Origin: Billgrantia pellis
Lineage (GTDB): Bacteria; Pseudomonadota; Gammaproteobacteria; Pseudomonadales; Halomonadaceae
Reading direction: 5' to 3'
NCBI RefSeq assembly: GCF_008297955.1
Contig: NZ_VTPY01000007.1
Span: 1 to 64,000, forward strand
Length of the DNA: 64,000 nucleotides
Both the position numbers and the translations under genes were made by a program. The notes under the pieces were generated by a model. That model saw only the letters and a list, made by a program, of their open reading frames with translations, was not told the DNA's origin and did no database searches. Below, piece after piece: positions 4,378-12,579 of this stretch (position 1 is its first letter; every line of letters starts with the position of its first letter).

Positions 4378-5598
4378 TCATCCTGGTGGCGTTGACGGCT
4401 CGCGCATCAGCCCCTGAAACTCGGTGACGGCCAGAGCGGTGAATTCCGGATCGTTGATATGCCAGGGGCAGCGGATCAGGCGGCGCTCGGCGCTCTGTCG
4501 TACCGTGGCCTCCAGCGCCGCGAACAGCGCGGCGTCGGCTTCGGGGTCATGGAAGAGCTGGCCGGGAGCATCGAGGGCCGAGACCCCGCCCTCGGGCAGC
4601 AGGAAGCGCAGCGGCCCCCGGCAGCGATTGAGCTTCTCGCCGATCCAGCGCCCCATCCGAGCGTTCTCCTCGGCAGTCGTGCGCATCAGGGTGATCTGCG
4701 GGTTGTGCTCGTAGAGGAGCCGGTGTCGATAGCGCTCGGGAAGCGTCTCGGGGCCGGCGAAGTTGACCATATCGAGCGCCCCGCAAGAGCCCACATAAGG
4801 CAAGTCGACCTGCGCCAACACGTCAAGCCGCGTGTCGCCGGCGCTGAAGATGCCGCCCATCAGCAGGTCGCAGACCTCGGTGGTGGTGATATCCAGTAGC
4901 CCCTTCAGCATACCGCTCGCGGCCAATTTTTCCATCGAGCGCCCGCCGGTGCCGGTGGCATGGAAGACCAAGCAGTCATACGCCGGCGACAGCGCATCGG
5001 TTATTCGATTCACGCATGGCGTAGTGACGCCGAACATGCTCAGGCCGATGGCCGGCTTATCTTCGGCGACCTCGGGTATCCGGCCCTGGAGCATGCCGAG
5101 CAGGGCATGGGCGGCATTGCCCAGCACGCGGCGCGAGATACGATTGAGCCCCGCCACGTCGGTCACCGAGTAAACCATGGCGATATCGCTGGGCCCGACG
5201 TAGGGCGCGACATTGCCCGAGGCGATGGTCGAGACCATCACCTTGGGCACGCCGATGTCCAGATCGCGCATGGCGGGGGCGATCAGCGCCGTGCCGCCGG
5301 AACCGCCGATGCCGATGACGCCGGCCACGTCGTCGCGTTCCGCGAGGAGCCGACGCAGCGCCTCGGCCATCTGCGCCACGGCGCGACCCCGGTCGTTGAC
5401 GAAGACCGCCCCGGCGCCCTGGGGATGATAGGCGGCCACCTGGCGAGCGGGAATATCGGCCGCGGGCGCAGGGTCGCCACCGGTGCCGACGTCGATGATC
5501 AAGGCCTCGGCCCCTGCGGCCAGCAGCAGGTCGCGCAGATAGCATAGCTCCACGGCCTTGGTATCACAGGTGCCAATGATGAAGGCTTTGTGTCCCAT
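4378..5598 (-). CDS. Tm-1-like ATP-binding protein (UPF0261)
   Basis: The 406-residue cytoplasmic protein begins [17 protein letters not shown] and contains [18 protein letters not shown] and [19 protein letters not shown], hallmarks of the UPF0261 / Tm-1-like ATP-binding family. The family is named after the N-terminal domain of tomato Tm-1, which blocks tobamovirus replication; bacterial members have no settled reaction. ATG 5598 is preceded by AGGAGG. It is the distal gene of a run that also encodes an SRPBCC protein, the TIM-barrel partner that is the other half of Tm-1, and an ABC importer, which suggests a small-molecule pathway. Confidence 0.88.
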
Positions 5599-5652
5599 GG
5601 TGCCTCCTGGTCGGCATCGTCGCGCCGGCCTGATTGTTATCGATCTGAGGCG

Positions 5653-6090
5653 TCAGCCCTGGCAGCGTTCGACAGCCCCGTCGAAGGCGAGCCGGAAGGT
5701 ATCGGAGACGCGCTGCACCGCGTCCTCGCGATCGGCATCCGCCACCTCGAATTCCGCCCACCATTCGCCGAAGCACTGGCCGGTGGTGGTAACGGGCTTG
5801 AGGCACATCTCGGCCACGTAGCCCTGCACCGGAAGGGCCGGGGCCTCGAGGATGCGGTAACAGCAGCGGTGCTCACGATCCGAGAGCGTGAGCAGCTCCT
5901 CGCGGATGAAGTTGCCGTCGTAATCGTGGAAGTGGCGCACGCAGCCGATCTGGTCGGCAGGCTTGCCCGCCTCGATCTCGCTCCTGGCGAAGAACGGATG
6001 GTAGTCCGGCAAGCCGTTGAAATCGCGCAGCACGCTCCAGGCCTGCTCGAGGGTGATGGGCATGATGGCGCTGACGTAGACCCGGGTCAT
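5653..6090 (-). CDS. SRPBCC-fold protein
   Basis: This 145-residue protein has the N-terminus of a START/Bet v1-like ligand-binding fold (ITLEQAWSVLRDFNGLPDYH), followed by a strand segment with GCVRHFHDYDG and a C-terminal helix. Such folds bind hydrophobic ligands or act as cyclases or dehydratases. No catalytic assignment is possible from sequence alone. The start is supported by AAGGAG 14 bases upstream on the minus strand. It lies between the TIM-barrel gene (18 bases upstream) and the Tm-1-like gene, so it is probably part of the same pathway. Confidence 0.75.
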   Translation of the reverse strand: MTRVYVSAIMPITLEQAWSVLRDFNGLPDYHPFFARSEIEAGKPADQIGCVRHFHDYDGNFIREELLTLSDREHRCCYRILEAPALPVQGYVAEMCLKPVTTTGQCFGEWWAEFEVADADREDAVQRVSDTFRLAFDGAVERCQG

Positions 6091-6108
6091 GGTGGCGTCT
6101 CCTTGTTC

Positions 6109-6936
6109 TTAGGCAATGGCCTTGAAGCGGCGAATCTGTTCGGTCAGGGCGATCTCCGTTGGCAGGCGCTCCATGCTCGAGGCGCCATAGAAGCCGTTGC
6201 AGTGCTCGCTCTCGCGCATCACGTAGGCGGCGTCGTCGGGCGTGGCGATGGGGCCCCCATGGCACAGGATGATCACGTCCCTGCGCACGCGCCGGGCTGC
6301 CTCGGCCCATTCGTCGATCAGGCGTACCGATTCGTCCAGGCTCTTGGCGGATTCGGCGCCGATGGTGCCGCCCACGGTGACCCCCATGTGCGCCACGACG
6401 ATGTCGGCGCCGGCCTCCGCCATGGCCACGGCCTCGTCGGCGGAGAACACGTAGGGCGTGGTGAGCATGTCCATCTCGTGGGCCTGGCGAATCATGTCGA
6501 CCTCGCTGCCGTAGGTGATGCCGGTTTCCTCCAGACTGATGCGGAAGGTGCCGTCGATCAGCCCCACGGTGGGGAAGTTCTGCACCCCCGAGAAACCCAG
6601 CGCCTTAAGCTCGCGCAGCAGCTTGGGCATGATCACGAAGGGGTCCGTGCCGTTGACCCCGGCGAGCACCGGAGTGCGCTTGACCACCGGCAGCACCTCC
6701 AGCGCCATCTCCTGCACGATCTGGTTGGCATTGCCGTAGGCCAGCAGGCCGGCGGAAGAGGCACGGCCGGCCATGCGATAACGACCGGAGTTGTAGATCA
6801 CGATCAGGTCGATACCGCCGGCTTCCTCACACTTGGCCGAGATGCCGGTGCCGGCGCCGCCGCCGATGATCGGCTGGCCGCGAGCGATCATGTCTTGGAA
6901 GCGAGCCATCAGGTCCTGGCGGTTGAAGGGGGGCAT
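6109..6936 (-). CDS. PEP-hydrolase-like TIM-barrel protein (Tm-1 C-terminal half homologue)
   Basis: The 275-residue protein has a predicted TIM barrel with [44 protein letters not shown] and [13 protein letters not shown]. These identify the phosphoenolpyruvate hydrolase-like family, which also forms the C-terminal domain of plant Tm-1. AAGGAGAA lies just before ATG 6936; a longer frame to 7080 would overlap livM and is not used. Family chemistry is uncertain, though isocitrate-lyase/PEP-mutase-like reactions have been suggested. It is followed on the same strand by the SRPBCC and Tm-1-like genes. Confidence 0.85.
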
Positions 6937-6964
6937 ACCGTTCTCCTTGTCATTTGACGATGGT

Positions 6965-7948
6965 TCATTGGTGATGGGTGCGGGGGCGAGAGTCGACCTT
7001 GGCCGCAGGAGTCGAGGAACGTCGTGAACGGAGCGCCTGGCTGAGTTGGCCCACCACGCCCTGGCGGAAGGTGAGCACACAGGTCATGAACACCAGGCCG
7101 GTGATCACCGTGACCCAGGCGCCGAAGGGGTCCAGGTAGTGGTTCAGCGAGGAGACGAGTGCGGCCCCCACGGCCGGGCCGAAAACCGTGCTCATGCCGC
7201 CCAGCAGGGTCATCAAGATAACGTCGCCGGAGGTGTGCCAGTGCACGTCGTGAAGGGCCGCCAGCTGGAAGATAATCGCCTTGAGCGAGCCGGCGATACC
7301 CGACAGCCCGGCCGAGAGAGTAAACACCAGCACCTTGTAGCGGGCCACGGGATAACCCAGCGAGATGGCGCGAGGCTCATGTTCACGGATGGCGCGCAGC
7401 ACGTGGCCGAAAGGGGAATTGACGGTACGCCAGATCAGCCACAGGCCGGTACCGACGATGCCGACCACCACGTAGTAGAGCGCCGTGTTGTTGCCAAGGT
7501 CGATCAGGCCTAGGAAGGTGCCCCGTGGAATGCGCTGCAGGCCGTCCTCGGCGCCGGTGAAGGGTGCCTGGAGAAAGAAGAAGTAGACCAGCTGCGACAA
7601 GGCCAGGGTGATCATGGCCAGGTAGATGCCGCTGCGACGAATCGCCAGGGCGCCCACTAGGGTACCCAGCATGGCGGCCACCAGGCCTCCGGCGAGGATT
7701 CCCAGCTCGGTGGGAATGCCGTAGGTCTTGATCAACAGGCCTGTCACGTAGGCACCGGTCCCGAAGAAGGCGGCGTGGCCGAAGGAGAGGATTCCGGTAT
7801 GCCCCAGCAGCAGATTGAAGGCGCAGGCGAAGAGCACGAAGCACAGCGTCTTCATCACGAACACGGAGTAGACCAGTTGCGGAAAGAAGGGAACCGCCAG
7901 CAACGCCAGCAGACCCAAGGCGATCAGGGTGGAGGGCAAGGATCTCAT
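6965..7948 (-). CDS. Branched-chain-type ABC transporter permease LivM
   Basis: The 327-residue protein is strongly hydrophobic with about 8-10 membrane spans and carries LivM hallmarks: [22 protein letters not shown] near residue 45 and the cytoplasmic [21 protein letters not shown] loop that contacts the ATPases. It forms the inner-membrane channel with LivH. It starts at ATG 7948, two bases after the livH stop, so the genes are translationally linked. The open frame extends upstream to 8899 only because the livH gene has no stop in this frame. Confidence 0.9.
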
Positions 7949-7950
7949 GA

Positions 7951-8838
7951 TCAGCCCTCCTCGCGGCCGAACAGCCCGGCCGGGCGCAGCAGCAGCACCA
8001 GCACCATGACCAGGAAGACGATGGTCGACGAGAATTCGGAGTAGAACACCCGGGTGAGGCCTTCCACCACGCCCAGCCCCAGGCCGGTGACGATGGCACC
8101 CATGATCGAACCCAGCCCGCCGATCACCACCACGGCGAAAATGATGATGACCAGGCTGGAACCCATGGAGGGGTTGACGTGGAAGATGGGGGCGGCGAGT
8201 ACCCCGGCGAAGGCCGCCAGGCCCACGCCCACGCCATAAGTCAGGGTGACCAGGCGCGGTACGTTGATGCCGAAGGCCTGGGTCAGCTCCGAGCGTTCGG
8301 TGGCGGCGCGCAAGCTGGCGCCTAGTGGCGTGCGCTCGATGATGAACCAGGTTGCCAGGCACAGCAGTAGCGCCGAAACGATCACGAAGCCGCGATAAAG
8401 CGGCAGGACCATGAACCCCAGGTTGAGCGTGCCGCGCAGTAGCTCGGGTGTGGCAAAAGGCTGACCGGAGGAGCCGAAGGCGACGCGAAAGCCCCCCTCC
8501 AGTACCAATACCAGGCTGAAGGTCAGCAGCAGGCCGTAGATCGGGTCGAGTCCGTAGAGCCGGCGCAGGAACAGGAATTCGAACAGCATGCCGAACAGGG
8601 CCACGGCCAGCGGGGCGACAGCCAGCGTCAACCAGTAGCCGGCGCCCATGTACTGAGCCAGCAGAAAGGCGGTGAAGGCGCCCAGCATGAAGAAGGCGCC
8701 ATGGGCGAAATTGACGATCTTGAGCACGCCGAAGATGATCGCCAGGCCCAGGCTCAGCACGGCATAGAAGGAACCGTTGACGATGCCCAGCATGAGTTGC
8801 CCCAGCAGGGCCTGAATGGGGATGCCAAATATATCCAT
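7951..8838 (-). CDS. Branched-chain-type ABC transporter permease LivH
   Basis: The 295-residue permease shows LivH motifs: NGSFYAVLSLGLAIIFGVLK and NFAHGAFFMLGAF at the N-terminus, RAATERSELTQAFGINV in the coupling loop, and FAVVVIGGLGSIMGAIV near the C-terminus. It pairs with LivM in the inner membrane. I prefer ATG 8838; a GTG at 8844 would add two residues. The binding-protein gene lies 71 bases upstream on the same strand. Confidence 0.9.
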   Translation of the reverse strand: MDIFGIPIQALLGQLMLGIVNGSFYAVLSLGLAIIFGVLKIVNFAHGAFFMLGAFTAFLLAQYMGAGYWLTLAVAPLAVALFGMLFEFLFLRRLYGLDPIYGLLLTFSLVLVLEGGFRVAFGSSGQPFATPELLRGTLNLGFMVLPLYRGFVIVSALLLCLATWFIIERTPLGASLRAATERSELTQAFGINVPRLVTLTYGVGVGLAAFAGVLAAPIFHVNPSMGSSLVIIIFAVVVIGGLGSIMGAIVTGLGLGVVEGLTRVFYSEFSSTIVFLVMVLVLLLRPAGLFGREEG

Positions 8839-8909
8839 GATCACTTGCTCGCGAAGCTAACGGAGAGAGAAGGCCCAATGCCCGGCCGTCGCCGGGCACA
8901 GAGAGGGCA

Positions 8910-10139
8910 TCAATCGTTGTCGAGCAGGTGGCAGGTACTCTCCTCCAGCGGCTGGAAGGCTTCCTCGCCGGGAATGGTGGTCACCAGACGCAGGAAGTCG
9001 TAGTCGTACTCGGACTCGGCGGGGGCTTTCACTTCCCACAGGTACTGGTCGTGAACCATTCGGCCGTTGGGCCGGATGTAGCCACCCGAGGCGAAGAAGT
9101 CGTTGATCTCCAGCTCGCGCATCGTCTCGGATACCGCATCGGGATCATCGCTACCGGCGGCCTCGATGGCATTCAGGTAATGCATGGTGGAGGAGTAATT
9201 GCCGGCGTGGGCCATGTTGGGCATGCGTCCGGTGCGCTCGTAGAAACGCTGAGAGAACTCGCGGGTCTCGTCGTTGGCATCCCAGTAGAAGGCGTTGGTC
9301 AACATCAAGCCCTGGGCGGTCTCCAGTCCCAGGCTGACGATGTCGTCATACCATAGCAGCAGCGCGGCCGGGCGCTGCTCGGGTGTCACGCCGAACTCGG
9401 CCAAGGCGTTGATGGCGTTGATAGCGTCGGCGCCGGTGGAAGCGATGCCGATGATCTCCGCGCCGGAGGCCTGGGCCTGCAAGGCGTAGGAGGAGAAATC
9501 GGTAGTATCCAGCGGGTGGCGAGCGGCACCGACGACCTGGCCCCCGGCTTCGCGTACCACCTCGGAGACCTGTTCCTCGAGCCCGATGCCGAAGGCGAAG
9601 TCCACGGTGAGGAAGAACCAGGTATCGCCACCGTCCTCGACGATCGACTTGCCGGTGCCGTGCGCCAGCGAATGCGCATCGTAGGTATAGTGGGTCACAT
9701 AAGGCGAGCAATAGTCGTTGGTGAGCCCGATATTGGATGACGAATTGACGATGGCGTGGCGCTTTTGCTCGTCGGCCACGGCCGCCACGGCCAGGGCGAC
9801 TCCGGAATTGGATAGATCGTTGATCATATCCACGCCTTCGCTGTCGTACCACTCGCGGGCACGGCTGGCGCCAGTGTCGGCGCGGTTGCGGTGGTCGCCG
9901 TGGATGACCTCGATGGGGACGCCGTTGACCTCGCCGCCAAAATCCTCGACGGCCATCCGTACGGCTTCCAACGCTGCTTCACCGGAGAGATCGGTGTAGA
10001 TGCCGGACATGTCGGTGAGCACGCCGATTCGCACTACATCGTCGGTATAGCCTTCGCTGGCCATGGCGTGGGAAAGCCCCCCCAGGCCCAGCACGGTGGA
10101 GGACACCACCAAGGTTTTCAAGGAGTTCGTGGCTGGCAT
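8910..10139 (-). CDS. ABC transporter substrate-binding protein, LivK-like
   Basis: The 409-residue protein has a signal peptide (about 1-27, ending near SHAMA) and a type I periplasmic-binding fold: RIGVLTDMSGIYTDLSG at the start of the mature part, AVAAVADEQKRHAIVNSSSN, and a C-terminal lobe with AHAGNYSSTMHYLNAI. The family binds amino acids, amides, aromatic acids and similar ligands, so the name does not fix the substrate. ATG 10139 is preceded by AGGAG, which excludes the in-frame extension to 10301. It is divergent from the AraC gene and heads the livHM/TIM-barrel/SRPBCC/Tm-1 run. Confidence 0.9.
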   Translation of the reverse strand: MPATNSLKTLVVSSTVLGLGGLSHAMASEGYTDDVVRIGVLTDMSGIYTDLSGEAALEAVRMAVEDFGGEVNGVPIEVIHGDHRNRADTGASRAREWYDSEGVDMINDLSNSGVALAVAAVADEQKRHAIVNSSSNIGLTNDYCSPYVTHYTYDAHSLAHGTGKSIVEDGGDTWFFLTVDFAFGIGLEEQVSEVVREAGGQVVGAARHPLDTTDFSSYALQAQASGAEIIGIASTGADAINAINALAEFGVTPEQRPAALLLWYDDIVSLGLETAQGLMLTNAFYWDANDETREFSQRFYERTGRMPNMAHAGNYSSTMHYLNAIEAAGSDDPDAVSETMRELEINDFFASGGYIRPNGRMVHDQYLWEVKAPAESEYDYDFLRLVTTIPGEEAFQPLEESTCHLLDND

Positions 10140-10248
10140 TGTTTTTTCTCCTGTTCTCATAGGGCGCTGTTGTTGTAATTTGCTCTGATTCGAACGGTTT
10201 GTTTTCTTACGGCCTTTTACAGTTAGGGCCAATACGGGCGAGTGCGCC

Positions 10249-11094
10249 ATGGCTGCAGAGCACGAACAGCTATCCGAAACCCACATCGTCGGCGATGACA
10301 CCCGTCAGTGGATCGTGCGCGCCGAGGATTGCACGGCACTCGAGCAGCGGCACATCTCCCATGTGGGCTTCGGCGATGCCGCGGTGCCCTACCGCATCGT
10401 GCGTACCCGCCTGAGCGGCGCCTATATCCACGGTTCGCTGGGCGGCGAAGGCCGCATGCTGCTCGACGGTCGCTGGTGCACCATGCGCCGCAACATGATG
10501 TCCTTCGCCCCGGCCCACGGGTTGCATGCCTTCCATGCCGTGCCCGAAAAGCGCTGGCAGTACTGCTGGCTGCGCTATCTGCCCAGCGCGCCGCGTTCGG
10601 TGGTGGGAACCATCGCCCCGATCATGCAGCACTTCGACCCCGAACCGATGAAGCACGCCATCCTGGGTCTCTACAGTGAAGTGTTCCACGGCGAGGGGGA
10701 CCCGGCCAGCTGCGTGATGTGGGTTGACACCATCGAACGCTACATCTCACGCTTCGCCGATCCCTGGCGGCGCGATGCGCGTATCGTGGCGGTCTTCGAT
10801 GCGGTGATGCCGACCCTGGAGCGGCACTGGACCATCGAGGAGATGGCCGAGATCGCCCACGTCAGCACCGAGCACCTGCGGCGGATCAGCCGCAAGGTGT
10901 TCGGTCGCAGCCCCATGCAGCAGCTCACTCAGCTGCGCATGCAGCACGCGACTCACTTACTGGCGACCAGCGATTTGCCGATCGAGGAGATCGCCGAGCG
11001 GGTGGGCTATCGCAGCCCCTTTGCCTTCTCCAAGACCTTCAAGCGCATGAACGGCGTCTCGCCCTCCCACTTCCGCCTGCATTCCCGCGTCTGA
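10249..11094 (+). CDS. AraC-family transcriptional regulator
   Basis: The 281-residue protein has an N-terminal cupin-like sensing region (about 25-120) and a C-terminal double helix-turn-helix (about 180-281): TIEEMAEIAHVSTEHLRRIS, then PIEEIAERVGYRSPFAFSKT and the family ending MNGVSPSHFR. It is divergent from the binding-protein gene across 109 bases and its end abuts the end of livF, so it most likely controls the surrounding transporter and Tm-1-like pathway. The effector is unknown. The ribosome site before ATG 10249 is weak. Confidence 0.88.
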   Translation: MAAEHEQLSETHIVGDDTRQWIVRAEDCTALEQRHISHVGFGDAAVPYRIVRTRLSGAYIHGSLGGEGRMLLDGRWCTMRRNMMSFAPAHGLHAFHAVPEKRWQYCWLRYLPSAPRSVVGTIAPIMQHFDPEPMKHAILGLYSEVFHGEGDPASCVMWVDTIERYISRFADPWRRDARIVAVFDAVMPTLERHWTIEEMAEIAHVSTEHLRRISRKVFGRSPMQQLTQLRMQHATHLLATSDLPIEEIAERVGYRSPFAFSKTFKRMNGVSPSHFRLHSRV

Positions 11095-11102
11095 TCGCGA
11101 TG

Positions 11103-11831
11103 CTAGACGCCCAGGCGTGCCAGCAGGGCATCGGCGTCCTGCTCGATGCCCTTGCGGTCATAGCGTGCCACCACCTGACCGTGATCGATGAGGTAGAAGT
11201 GATCGGCCACGCTCATGGCGAAGTGCAGGTTCTGTTCCACCAGCAGGAGGGTATAGCCCCGTTTCTTGAGGTGGCGGATGGTGTCGCCGATATGCTCGAC
11301 GATGCTGGGCGCCAGCCCCTCGGTAGGTTCATCGAGCAATAGCAGCCTGGCCCCGGTACGCAGGGTGCGTCCGATGGCCAGCATCTGCTGCTCCCCTCCG
11401 GAAAGCTTGGTCCCGGGGCTGCTAAGCCTCTCGCGCAGGTGAGGAAACAGATCGAGCACCTGCTCGGTGCTCAGGCCGTTGTCGTCGATCCGTGTCGGCA
11501 GCTCGAGGTGCTCCTTGACATCTAGCGTGGCGTAGATGCCACGGTCCTCCGGGCAGAAGGCAACGCCATGGCGGGCGACGTGGAAAGGACGCAGGCCGAT
11601 GGTTTCGGTGCGGGCAAGCCGAATGCTGCCACGGCGCCGCGGGACAATGCCCATGATCGACTTCAGCGTGGTGGATTTCCCTGCGCCGTTGCGGCCCAGC
11701 AGGGTGACCACCTGCCCTGGCGGTACCTCCAGGTCGATGCCGTGCAGCACGTGGCTTTCGCCGTACCAGGCGTGCAGGTCGCGGATGGCAAGCATGGGCT
11801 CGAGGGCCTGCTTCGCGGCGGCATCAGTCAT
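11103..11831 (-). CDS. Branched-chain-type ABC transporter ATPase LivF
   Basis: The 242-residue ATPase has Walker A GRNGAGKS (46-53), the LivF-type stretch GVAFCPEDRGIYATLDVKEHL, the signature LSGGEQQMLAIGR, Walker B LLLLDEPTEGL and the H-loop segment LLVEQNLHFA. With LivG it powers the LivHM channel. Its start lies inside the end of livG (8-base overlap at 11824-11831), so the two are translated together. The products belong with LivH/LivM/LivK encoded beyond the intervening AraC gene. Confidence 0.92.
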   Translation of the reverse strand: MTDAAAKQALEPMLAIRDLHAWYGESHVLHGIDLEVPPGQVVTLLGRNGAGKSTTLKSIMGIVPRRRGSIRLARTETIGLRPFHVARHGVAFCPEDRGIYATLDVKEHLELPTRIDDNGLSTEQVLDLFPHLRERLSSPGTKLSGGEQQMLAIGRTLRTGARLLLLDEPTEGLAPSIVEHIGDTIRHLKKRGYTLLLVEQNLHFAMSVADHFYLIDHGQVVARYDRKGIEQDADALLARLGV

Positions 11832-12579
11832 GGCGGGCCCCTCCGATGTAGGATTCGATCACGCGCGCGTCGCACGACACGGTGGCGTAGTCGCCCTCAA
11901 CCAGCACCTCGCCGCGAGCCAGTACGGTGATGCGGTCGCAGAGTTCGGCCACCACGCCCAGGTTGTGTTCCACCATCAGCACCGAGCGCCCCTCTGCCAC
12001 GCGGCGGATCAGCTCGGCAGTTCTGCCTACGTCCTCCGTGCCCATGCCGGCCAGCGGCTCGTCGAGTAACATCACCTCGGGGTCGAGCGCCAAGGTAGTG
12101 GCGAGCTCCAGGGCACGCTTGCGCCCATAGGGCAATTCGGCGGCAGCTATGTCGGCCCATGGCTCCAGGCCAACGTCGGTCAGCAGCGCCATGGCCCGCT
12201 CGCGATGATGATCGAGCCGGTGATGCGAGGCCCAGAAGTCGTAGGACTCGCCGCGCTGGCGCTGCAGCGCCAGCTTGACGTTCTCCAGCGCACTGAGGTG
12301 GCCGAACACGGCGGATATCTGAAACGAGCGGACCATGCCCAGCCTGGCTATCTGGTCCGGCTTGAGGCGAGTGATGTCGCGCCCTTTGTAGAGAATGCTG
12401 CCGGCGCTGGGTTCGAGGAATTTCGTCAGCAGGTTGAAGCAGGTGGTCTTGCCCGCTCCGTTGGCGCCGATCAGAGCATGAATGGTACCGGGCTCGATCC
12501 GGATGGAGATGTCGTTGACCGCCGTGAAGCCCCGGAAGTTCTTGGTGAGGCCCCGGGTTTCGATGATTGCCTCTGCCAT
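11824..12579 (-). CDS. Branched-chain-type ABC transporter ATPase LivG
   Basis: The 251-residue ATPase has Walker A GANGAGKT (38-45), RSFQISAVFGHLSALENV, Walker B VMLLDEPLAGMG and the LMVEHNLGVV H-loop. The signature region reads LPYGRKRALELA, the relaxed form common in LivG rather than a strict LSGGQ. It is the first gene of the livG-livF pair; no other gene of the island lies upstream on this strand. Confidence 0.92.
   Translation of the reverse strand: MAEAIIETRGLTKNFRGFTAVNDISIRIEPGTIHALIGANGAGKTTCFNLLTKFLEPSAGSILYKGRDITRLKPDQIARLGMVRSFQISAVFGHLSALENVKLALQRQRGESYDFWASHHRLDHHRERAMALLTDVGLEPWADIAAAELPYGRKRALELATTLALDPEVMLLDEPLAGMGTEDVGRTAELIRRVAEGRSVLMVEHNLGVVAELCDRITVLARGEVLVEGDYATVSCDARVIESYIGGARHD

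Follow-up and report, generated by a model that had tools for sequence, protein, structure and literature searches.

The tomato protein Tm-1 carries a UPF0261 domain and a PF09370 triosephosphate isomerase (TIM) barrel, members of two widespread families, in one chain. In the accessible part of Yang 2016 (PMC5028733), these domains are described as separate genes in bacteria, as a fusion in plants and as co-evolving, with UPF0261 present in 491 of 504 barrel-bearing bacterial genomes; the term SRPBCC does not occur in the main text of that paper as far as it was accessible. The pair COG5441-COG5564 is likewise a known prediction, with a STRING score of 0.988 (PMC8963296, accessible part). In addition, the accessible part of PMC13101465 presents MarK as a single-component kinase starting acetovanillone breakdown in Novosphingobium aromaticivorans. 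Here we describe a locus in a window of 64,000 nucleotides (positions 1 to 64,000 of contig NZ_VTPY01000007.1 of Billgrantia pellis), where a UPF0261 gene, an SRPBCC gene and a PF09370 gene end a transporter operon. We put at about 0.5 the probability that they encode a kinase, a barrel that processes the resulting phosphate ester and an SRPBCC accessory enzyme, in an operon for uptake and breakdown. The UPF0261/PF09370 pairing is already known; what opens its function to testing is the conserved third gene together with the proposed division of labour. Neither an SRPBCC partner nor an enzyme/sensor difference between barrels was found among the matches listed in our literature search, which covered titles and abstract openings and left most subscription literature outside.

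The genes of the locus are:
4378..5598, minus strand: UPF0261 protein, 406 residues, relative of the Tm-1 N-terminal half, proposed ATP-dependent small-molecule kinase (PF06792, PF23189, 3wry)
5653..6090, minus strand: SRPBCC protein, 145 residues, proposed accessory enzyme (PF10604, solved relatives)
6109..6936, minus strand: PF09370 "PEP hydrolase-like" (PEP, phosphoenolpyruvate) TIM barrel, 275 residues, relative of the Tm-1 C-terminal half, proposed phosphate-ester-processing enzyme (PF09370, 2p10)
6965..7984, minus strand: LivM-type permease (PF02653)
7951..8844, minus strand: LivH-type permease (PF02653)
8910..10139, minus strand: HAAT solute-binding protein (PF13458, E 9e-100; 3i09, E 5e-125)
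10249..11094, plus strand: AraC-family regulator, divergent from the solute-binding protein gene (PF12833, PF02311)
11103..11831, minus strand: LivF-type ATPase (PF00005)
11824..12579, minus strand: LivG-type ATPase (PF00005)

A conserved three-gene run

The three genes share the minus strand and lie directly 3' of livM, at the end of a branched-chain-type ATP-binding cassette (ABC) transporter operon, with gaps of 28 bp (livM to barrel), 18 bp (barrel to SRPBCC) and 54 bp (SRPBCC to UPF0261). Each ATG follows a Shine-Dalgarno-like site (AGGAGG for UPF0261, AAGGAG for SRPBCC and for the barrel). The transporter is a five-gene HAAT (branched-chain amino-acid type) system with a divergent AraC regulator; we placed the start of its solute-binding protein at the ATG at 10139, which AGGAG precedes. 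These nine genes, from 4378 to 12579, are one system. The genome holds a single match each for UPF0261, PF09370 and the SRPBCC subfamily (the last at E up to 1e-12), all at this locus.

A genome scan with patterns of the window barrel gave 73 related loci, or 74 when the window locus (L001) is counted. This sample favours close relatives (at least 60% identity to the window barrel) because it was built from that barrel's own patterns; the class and family genome samples used below are independent of this selection. UPF0261 is present with the barrel in 71 of the 73 loci (72/74 with L001). The exceptions are L067 and L068, where the contig ends at the barrel, and no UPF0261 match was found in the complete 4.2-Mb assembly behind L067 (G274). 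A same-strand SRPBCC gene is found no more than 400 bp from the barrel or UPF0261 in 60/73 loci (61/74 with L001) and anywhere in the locus in 61/73 (62/74). Barrel and UPF0261 less than 1 kb apart on one strand, with SRPBCC within 400 bp of either, are seen in 53 of the 74 loci, the window's own included. The three-gene run is more than chance.

Among 274 gammaproteobacterial genomes, matches above Pfam cut-offs were found for PF09370 in six, for UPF0261 in nine and for both in five (Fisher p 6e-8, which is nominal only because the genomes are related). The PF09370 match of the one barrel-only genome is a 61-residue fragment, and four genomes hold UPF0261 without the barrel. With E up to 1e-12 allowed, 27 of the 274 match the SRPBCC profile; at a cut-off of E below 1e-35, chosen after inspecting the list, seven genomes pass, of which four hold the pair (with SRPBCC no more than about 2.1 kb from the barrel) and three do not. 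One genome (G016) has the pair without SRPBCC. Pairwise protein distances over 58 loci correlate at r 0.82 (TIM-UPF0261), 0.85 (TIM-SRPBCC) and 0.81 (UPF0261-SRPBCC), against a best value below 0.2 in 999 permutations, which is co-inheritance and not contact.

An earlier note on this DNA had placed the three genes in one run directly after livM, as we find them, and had assigned them to families whose curated Pfam cut-offs all three pass. The transporter genes other than livM and the AraC regulator were not named in it. The matches to 3wry and 2p10 agree with its view that the two halves of Tm-1 are encoded here as separate neighbours, and the co-occurrence across genomes that it had proposed to check holds in the related loci and in five of the six barrel genomes of the class. 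Very probably the pair does act in one small-molecule pathway with the transporter, as the note had argued. Its remark that the reaction is not known is partly outdated by MarK (PMC13101465, accessible part) and by 9mpy, whose title names Saro_1862, a UPF0261 domain protein of Novosphingobium aromaticivorans, crystallised with bound acetovanillone; a name for the joint reaction was not found in the literature searched.

Such close association could also mean that a single ATP-dependent enzyme is made up of UPF0261 and the barrel as its two subunits, and that it keeps an activated intermediate within the complex. ATP would drive C-C or C-O cleavage or hydrolysis, and the plant fusion would be the single-chain form. 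This explanation would account for the strong co-occurrence, for the fusion and co-evolution reported in the accessible part of PMC5028733, and for the short distance between the aligned stretches where UPF0261 lies within 1 kb and SRPBCC is not adjacent, which is 7-62 bp in 10 of 11 such loci. However, the MarK-type operons described below have UPF0261 without a barrel, regulators have barrel domains without UPF0261, and in 8/74 loci the barrel is over 2 kb away from the nearest UPF0261; we regard it as plausible in outline but unlikely.

The UPF0261 protein and its putative kinase relatives

PF06792 (E 5e-62, 209 bits) and PF23189 (E 1e-88, 296 bits; cut-off 27 each) together cover the whole UPF0261 chain; among solved structures, its best relative is 3wry, the Tm-1 N-terminal half from tomato (E 2e-96). 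The predicted model, with a predicted local distance difference test score (pLDDT) of 92.4, superposes on Tm-1 (3wrw) with Z 45.7 over 385 residues and a root-mean-square deviation (rmsd) of 2.1, and on 9mpy with Z 33.1 (387 residues). An alignment of 38 TIM-paired UPF0261 proteins has 58 invariant positions, of which 39 show the same residue in Tm-1 and Saro_1862, including D12, K14, E17, K119, D138, D147, N152, H213, D236, E241, R257, R293, R306 and D343. Most likely, judging from these relatives, the window protein is an ATP-dependent small-molecule kinase.

Gene order suggests that MarK may be Saro_1862 itself, because the surroundings of Saro_1862 relatives mirror the biotin-carboxylase and phosphatase steps of the published Hpe/Acv pathway, as given in the accessible part of its description. 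UPF0261 proteins 54-80% identical to Saro_1862 head a run of biotin carboxyl carrier protein, biotin carboxylase, carboxyltransferase and HAD phosphatase in five of six loci, and in the sixth (L122) the contig ends after the second gene; a carboxylase is present in six and the phosphatase in five, and the run of L123 was confirmed by Pfam. In the 74 TIM-paired loci, neither biotin carrier, biotin carboxylase, carboxyltransferase nor HAD phosphatase was found. The window locus has no MarK-type carboxylase/phosphatase operon: the six minus-strand genes upstream of and between the pair are those of the transporter and SRPBCC. Among 149 genomes of the family that contains Novosphingobium, UPF0261 exceeds its cut-off in seven, two of them barrel-adjoining and five MarK-type. 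A tree of 107 UPF0261 proteins splits 11 unpaired tips from the 96 others, the window protein and Tm-1 included (support 0.915). In this tree, TIM-pairing marks a separate UPF0261 clade, one that appears to have switched partner relative to MarK-type operons.

The kinship to Tm-1 raises the question of whether the three genes take part in antiviral defence, the role of Tm-1 in tomato. The UPF0261 protein is about 40-44% identical to the Tm-1 N-terminal half and some copies of the genes lie on conjugative plasmids, but none of the three proteins matches a PADLOC family at E up to 0.01, the neighbours are mostly transporters and metabolic enzymes, and Tm-1 itself works, according to the accessible part of its description, by binding the replication proteins of tomato mosaic virus. 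We consider a defence role very improbable.

Stand-alone and regulator-fused barrels

The window barrel matches PF09370 over 265 of 267 model positions (E 8e-127, 422 bits, cut-off 33.8), and its closest relatives, 93-96% identical, belong to the Halomonas/Billgrantia group. Its best solved relative is 2p10 (E 8e-122; Z 37.1 with the predicted model, pLDDT 85.8), and the next structure match is 4ml9 ("conserved phosphate binding site"), at Z 19.3. The strand ends carry H183, H226-G227-G228 and G251-A252-S253-S254, and we take the last two, from general knowledge of such barrels, to be a phosphate-binding pair.

H183 and H226 are kept in 112/112 stand-alone barrels, down to 39% identity; 103/103 of these are distinct after omission of L001 and of the overlapping loci L104-L119, and ten short or partial copies were left out of the count (12 were flagged, two being regulators). 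For comparison, we aligned 25 barrels from open reading frames (ORFs) of at least 380 residues and dropped three, L079_3 (an over-long gene call, misaligned), L119_1 (which is the L125_6 gene again) and L109_2 (part of the L126_6 locus). The 22 distinct ones are all Pfam-confirmed regulators, 19 sigma-54 activators and three of AraC type. H183 occurs in 3/22, those of AraC type, H226 in 1/22 and both in 0/22; G228, S253, R257 and N120 are kept in all 22 and D98 in 18. These patterns suggest that the histidine pair separates enzyme-like stand-alone barrels from sensor-like fused ones.

The fused copies also lend themselves to another explanation, in which the barrel serves to sense a ligand or to signal, in line with the older family name "TIM-barrel signal transduction", UPF0261 modifies the signal and neither is catabolic. 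PF09370 is indeed fused to sigma-54 activators and AraC helix-turn-helix (HTH) domains in many loci. Nevertheless, the stand-alone copies hold a histidine pair that no fused sensor has whole, and the operon already carries an AraC regulator of its own, so that a purely signalling role seems improbable to us.

In Firmicutes, AraC-HTH-fused barrels (L071:7389-8603, L072:7124-8317, L073:7276-8613) lie directly upstream of UPF0261 and a second barrel. Short PF09370 paralogues of 184-239 residues stand beside the pair at L079:5164-5880, L082:7058-7609, L084:7064-7645 and L085:7054-7641, three of the four on the opposite strand. These four, of six short barrel ORFs scanned, match only about positions 46-193 of PF09370, above cut-off.

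We also considered chemistry of the PEP mutase/isocitrate lyase superfamily for the barrel. The Pfam models of this superfamily gave no match at E up to 0.001, where PEP_hydrolase and, just below its cut-off, NMO are the matches; folds of the superfamily reach Z about 17 against the barrel model, while other barrels reach 16-19. We dropped this candidate, as fold rank alone is unspecific.

Returning to a kinase followed by an ester-processing barrel, the locus would be a substrate-inducible uptake and breakdown operon. The HAAT transporter would bring in a small organic compound under AraC control, and the UPF0261 protein would use ATP to phosphorylate that compound on an acidic hydroxyl, on the model of its relative MarK/Saro_1862, which is expected to act on the phenol of acetovanillone. 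The barrel may then hold the phosphate ester in the pair of loops where strands 7 and 8 end, and cleave, rearrange or dephosphorylate it with the invariant histidines H183 (end of strand 6) and H226 (end of strand 7), assisted by conserved acidic and polar residues; it would thus fill the place held by HAD phosphatase and carboxylase in the MarK-type operon. SRPBCC, the weakest part of this scheme, might support the pathway, for instance by tautomerising an unstable intermediate or by hydrolysing it. Barrels without the histidine pair, on sigma-54 and AraC-type regulators, could sense the same or a related ligand. The kinase link of UPF0261, the TIM-paired clade and the barrel histidine pair lead to a concrete assay, with ATP and candidate substrate first and the barrel added afterwards.

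SRPBCC, variation among loci and comparison with known systems

The SRPBCC protein matches PF10604 (Polyketide_cyc2; E 7e-17, 62.6 bits, cut-off 27.4), and its profile matches include 7tmu, XoxI, PYR/PYL receptors, lachrymatory-factor synthase and hydroxynitrile lyase. Twenty-two positions are invariant in 36 sequences, including W18, R22, E40, R52, R63, E64 and D71. These invariant charged residues, and the fusion, in L102, of an SRPBCC domain with a zinc-type alcohol dehydrogenase, weakly favour an enzyme rather than a binder. That fusion (L102:4286-5776, 497 residues) is a second SRPBCC domain, beside another SRPBCC and a flotillin gene. A longer SRPBCC form (mean length 307 residues) occurs in 13 loci, and the L044 copy scans as two SRPBCC stretches. 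In three genomes, SRPBCC copies away from the pair have neighbours without a common pattern.

The same protein could do the main chemistry, as a lyase or isomerase, with the UPF0261/barrel pair only preparing or clearing a side product. The profile matches to hydroxynitrile lyase and lachrymatory-factor synthase, the 22 invariant positions and the L102 fusion are compatible with this, yet 12 of the 74 loci have the pair without SRPBCC, and we hold this role to be quite improbable. As for the earlier suggestion that SRPBCC is the missing ligand-handling step, its part as a conserved neighbour stands (60/73 loci). It is nevertheless dispensable, being swapped elsewhere for a cupin, a flavin oxidoreductase or neither, which makes it an accessory rather than every pathway's missing step; nor need its role be limited to ligand handling, as there are enzymes in its fold group as well. 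With SRPBCC as a partner, the search is narrowed to a single branch that has a transporter of its own.

We viewed 21 of 239 matching plasmid records, picked for diversity. UPF0261 adjoins the barrel in 20 of the 21 regions, 19 times as annotated and once (L083) as an ABC ATPase-UPF0261 fusion. The pair is followed by a cupin in 6/21 and by a flavin oxidoreductase in 2/21, and its transporters are of HAAT, carbohydrate or other ABC type, or absent. On plasmids of Serratia, Pectobacterium and Xenorhabdus, TetR, UPF0261 and the barrel stand alone. Because plasmid loci swap or drop SRPBCC and transporter, UPF0261 and the barrel are the core and SRPBCC marks one large branch.

Three enterobacterial plasmids (L088, L089, L091) carry a two-gene UPF0261-barrel cassette with a divergent TetR and no annotated transporter or SRPBCC. 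On a Salinibacter plasmid, a barrel with both histidines (L093:9001-9855) has no UPF0261 annotated within the 18.8 kb viewed. UPF0261 is fused to the C-terminus of an ABC ATPase (731-750 residues) at L046:12268-14460, L066:7784-9994, L083:6708-8957 and L102:9117-11351, and in the same four loci flotillin genes lie within the UPF0261/barrel/SRPBCC run. In Halomonadaceae, a second barrel gene with its own HAAT transporter adjoins the first operon in L011, L015, L017, L018 and L065, and lies reversed beside it in L008 and L010. A xanthine/uracil-type permease and adenine deaminase are encoded downstream of the pair in Centipeda (L071:11250-14312).

Neighbours of the pair across loci include sugar ABC components, Gfo/Idh, AP_endonuc_2, cupin and ThuA proteins, besides the adenine deaminase and permease of Centipeda. 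These genes point to different pathways, and we therefore assign no single substrate. The best solved relatives of the window solute-binding protein, 3i09 and 3n0w, are named only as branched-chain amino-acid binding proteins, and it matches 4f06 and 4evs weakly (E about 1e-11). We take the latter two to bind aromatics, and draw no conclusion on the substrate from either.

Several observations weigh against a kinase followed by an ester-processing barrel. The kinase activity of TIM-paired UPF0261 proteins is ascribed to them from their family; the window protein shares only 28-29% identity with Saro_1862, is much closer to Tm-1, and its model fits 9mpy with an rmsd of 6.8. Four of the ten unpaired UPF0261 loci (L096, L098, L099, L127) have no carboxylase run, so the unpaired proteins do not represent one pathway. 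Neighbours of unpaired copies include TctABC (L127), aminotransferases (L098 and L099, the latter also with an amine oxidase and a HAD hydrolase), a glycosyltransferase (L096) and a DAO/GCV_T protein. The phosphate site of the barrel is putative, read from sequence and secondary structure rather than from a bound ligand, and many unrelated barrels score Z 16-19 against its model. Fused barrels keep Y48 and A252 in 0/22, E38 in 1/22 and E137 in 6/22, and they may bind a different ligand, because the pocket differs beyond the histidines. Finally, the distance correlation owes something to species descent, SRPBCC is missing from the 12 loci mentioned above, and it follows the barrel in only 4/21 plasmid regions (in L083, behind a flotillin gene).

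A broader reading, which we put forward tentatively as a whole, would join these elements. UPF0261 and PF09370 would be a cassette of general use that first phosphorylates and then processes acidic enols and phenols, and that has spread through bacteria, haloarchaea, fungi and, fused, land plants. Catalytically dead barrel copies would have become regulators that sense the phosphorylated intermediate, SRPBCC would be a dedicated third enzyme of one transporter-linked branch, and tomato Tm-1 would be a metabolic enzyme with two functions, the kinase half of which was co-opted for binding a viral helicase. Tm-1 is a crop resistance gene, and a described metabolic role for it was not found in the literature searched.

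Among known systems, Mll9387 (PDB 2p10) shares the PF09370 barrel, at about 65% identity to that of the window, but is titled a "putative phosphonopyruvate hydrolase", and no paper naming it was among the matches listed. The sigma-54 and AraC regulators share the barrel family and parts of the phosphate-type loop; they differ in being fused to DNA-binding parts and in never having both H183 and H226. The two-component dikinases HpeHI and AcvAB resemble MarK in opening a pathway by phosphorylating a phenolic ketone of the same kind, according to the accessible parts of their descriptions. We rejected them as UPF0261 proteins, as HpeHI is there an ATP-grasp/swivel dikinase and AcvAB its homologue. 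MarK/Saro_1862, if the two are one, has the UPF0261 fold over its full length and the 39 common invariant positions, but at the low identity given above, and its relatives sit with biotin carboxylase and phosphatase, without the barrel. The plant Tm-1-like proteins combine the same two domain families and fall on the TIM-paired side of the UPF0261 tree; they are one fused chain, known for virus resistance, whereas the transporter operon of the window holds two separate genes with SRPBCC between them.

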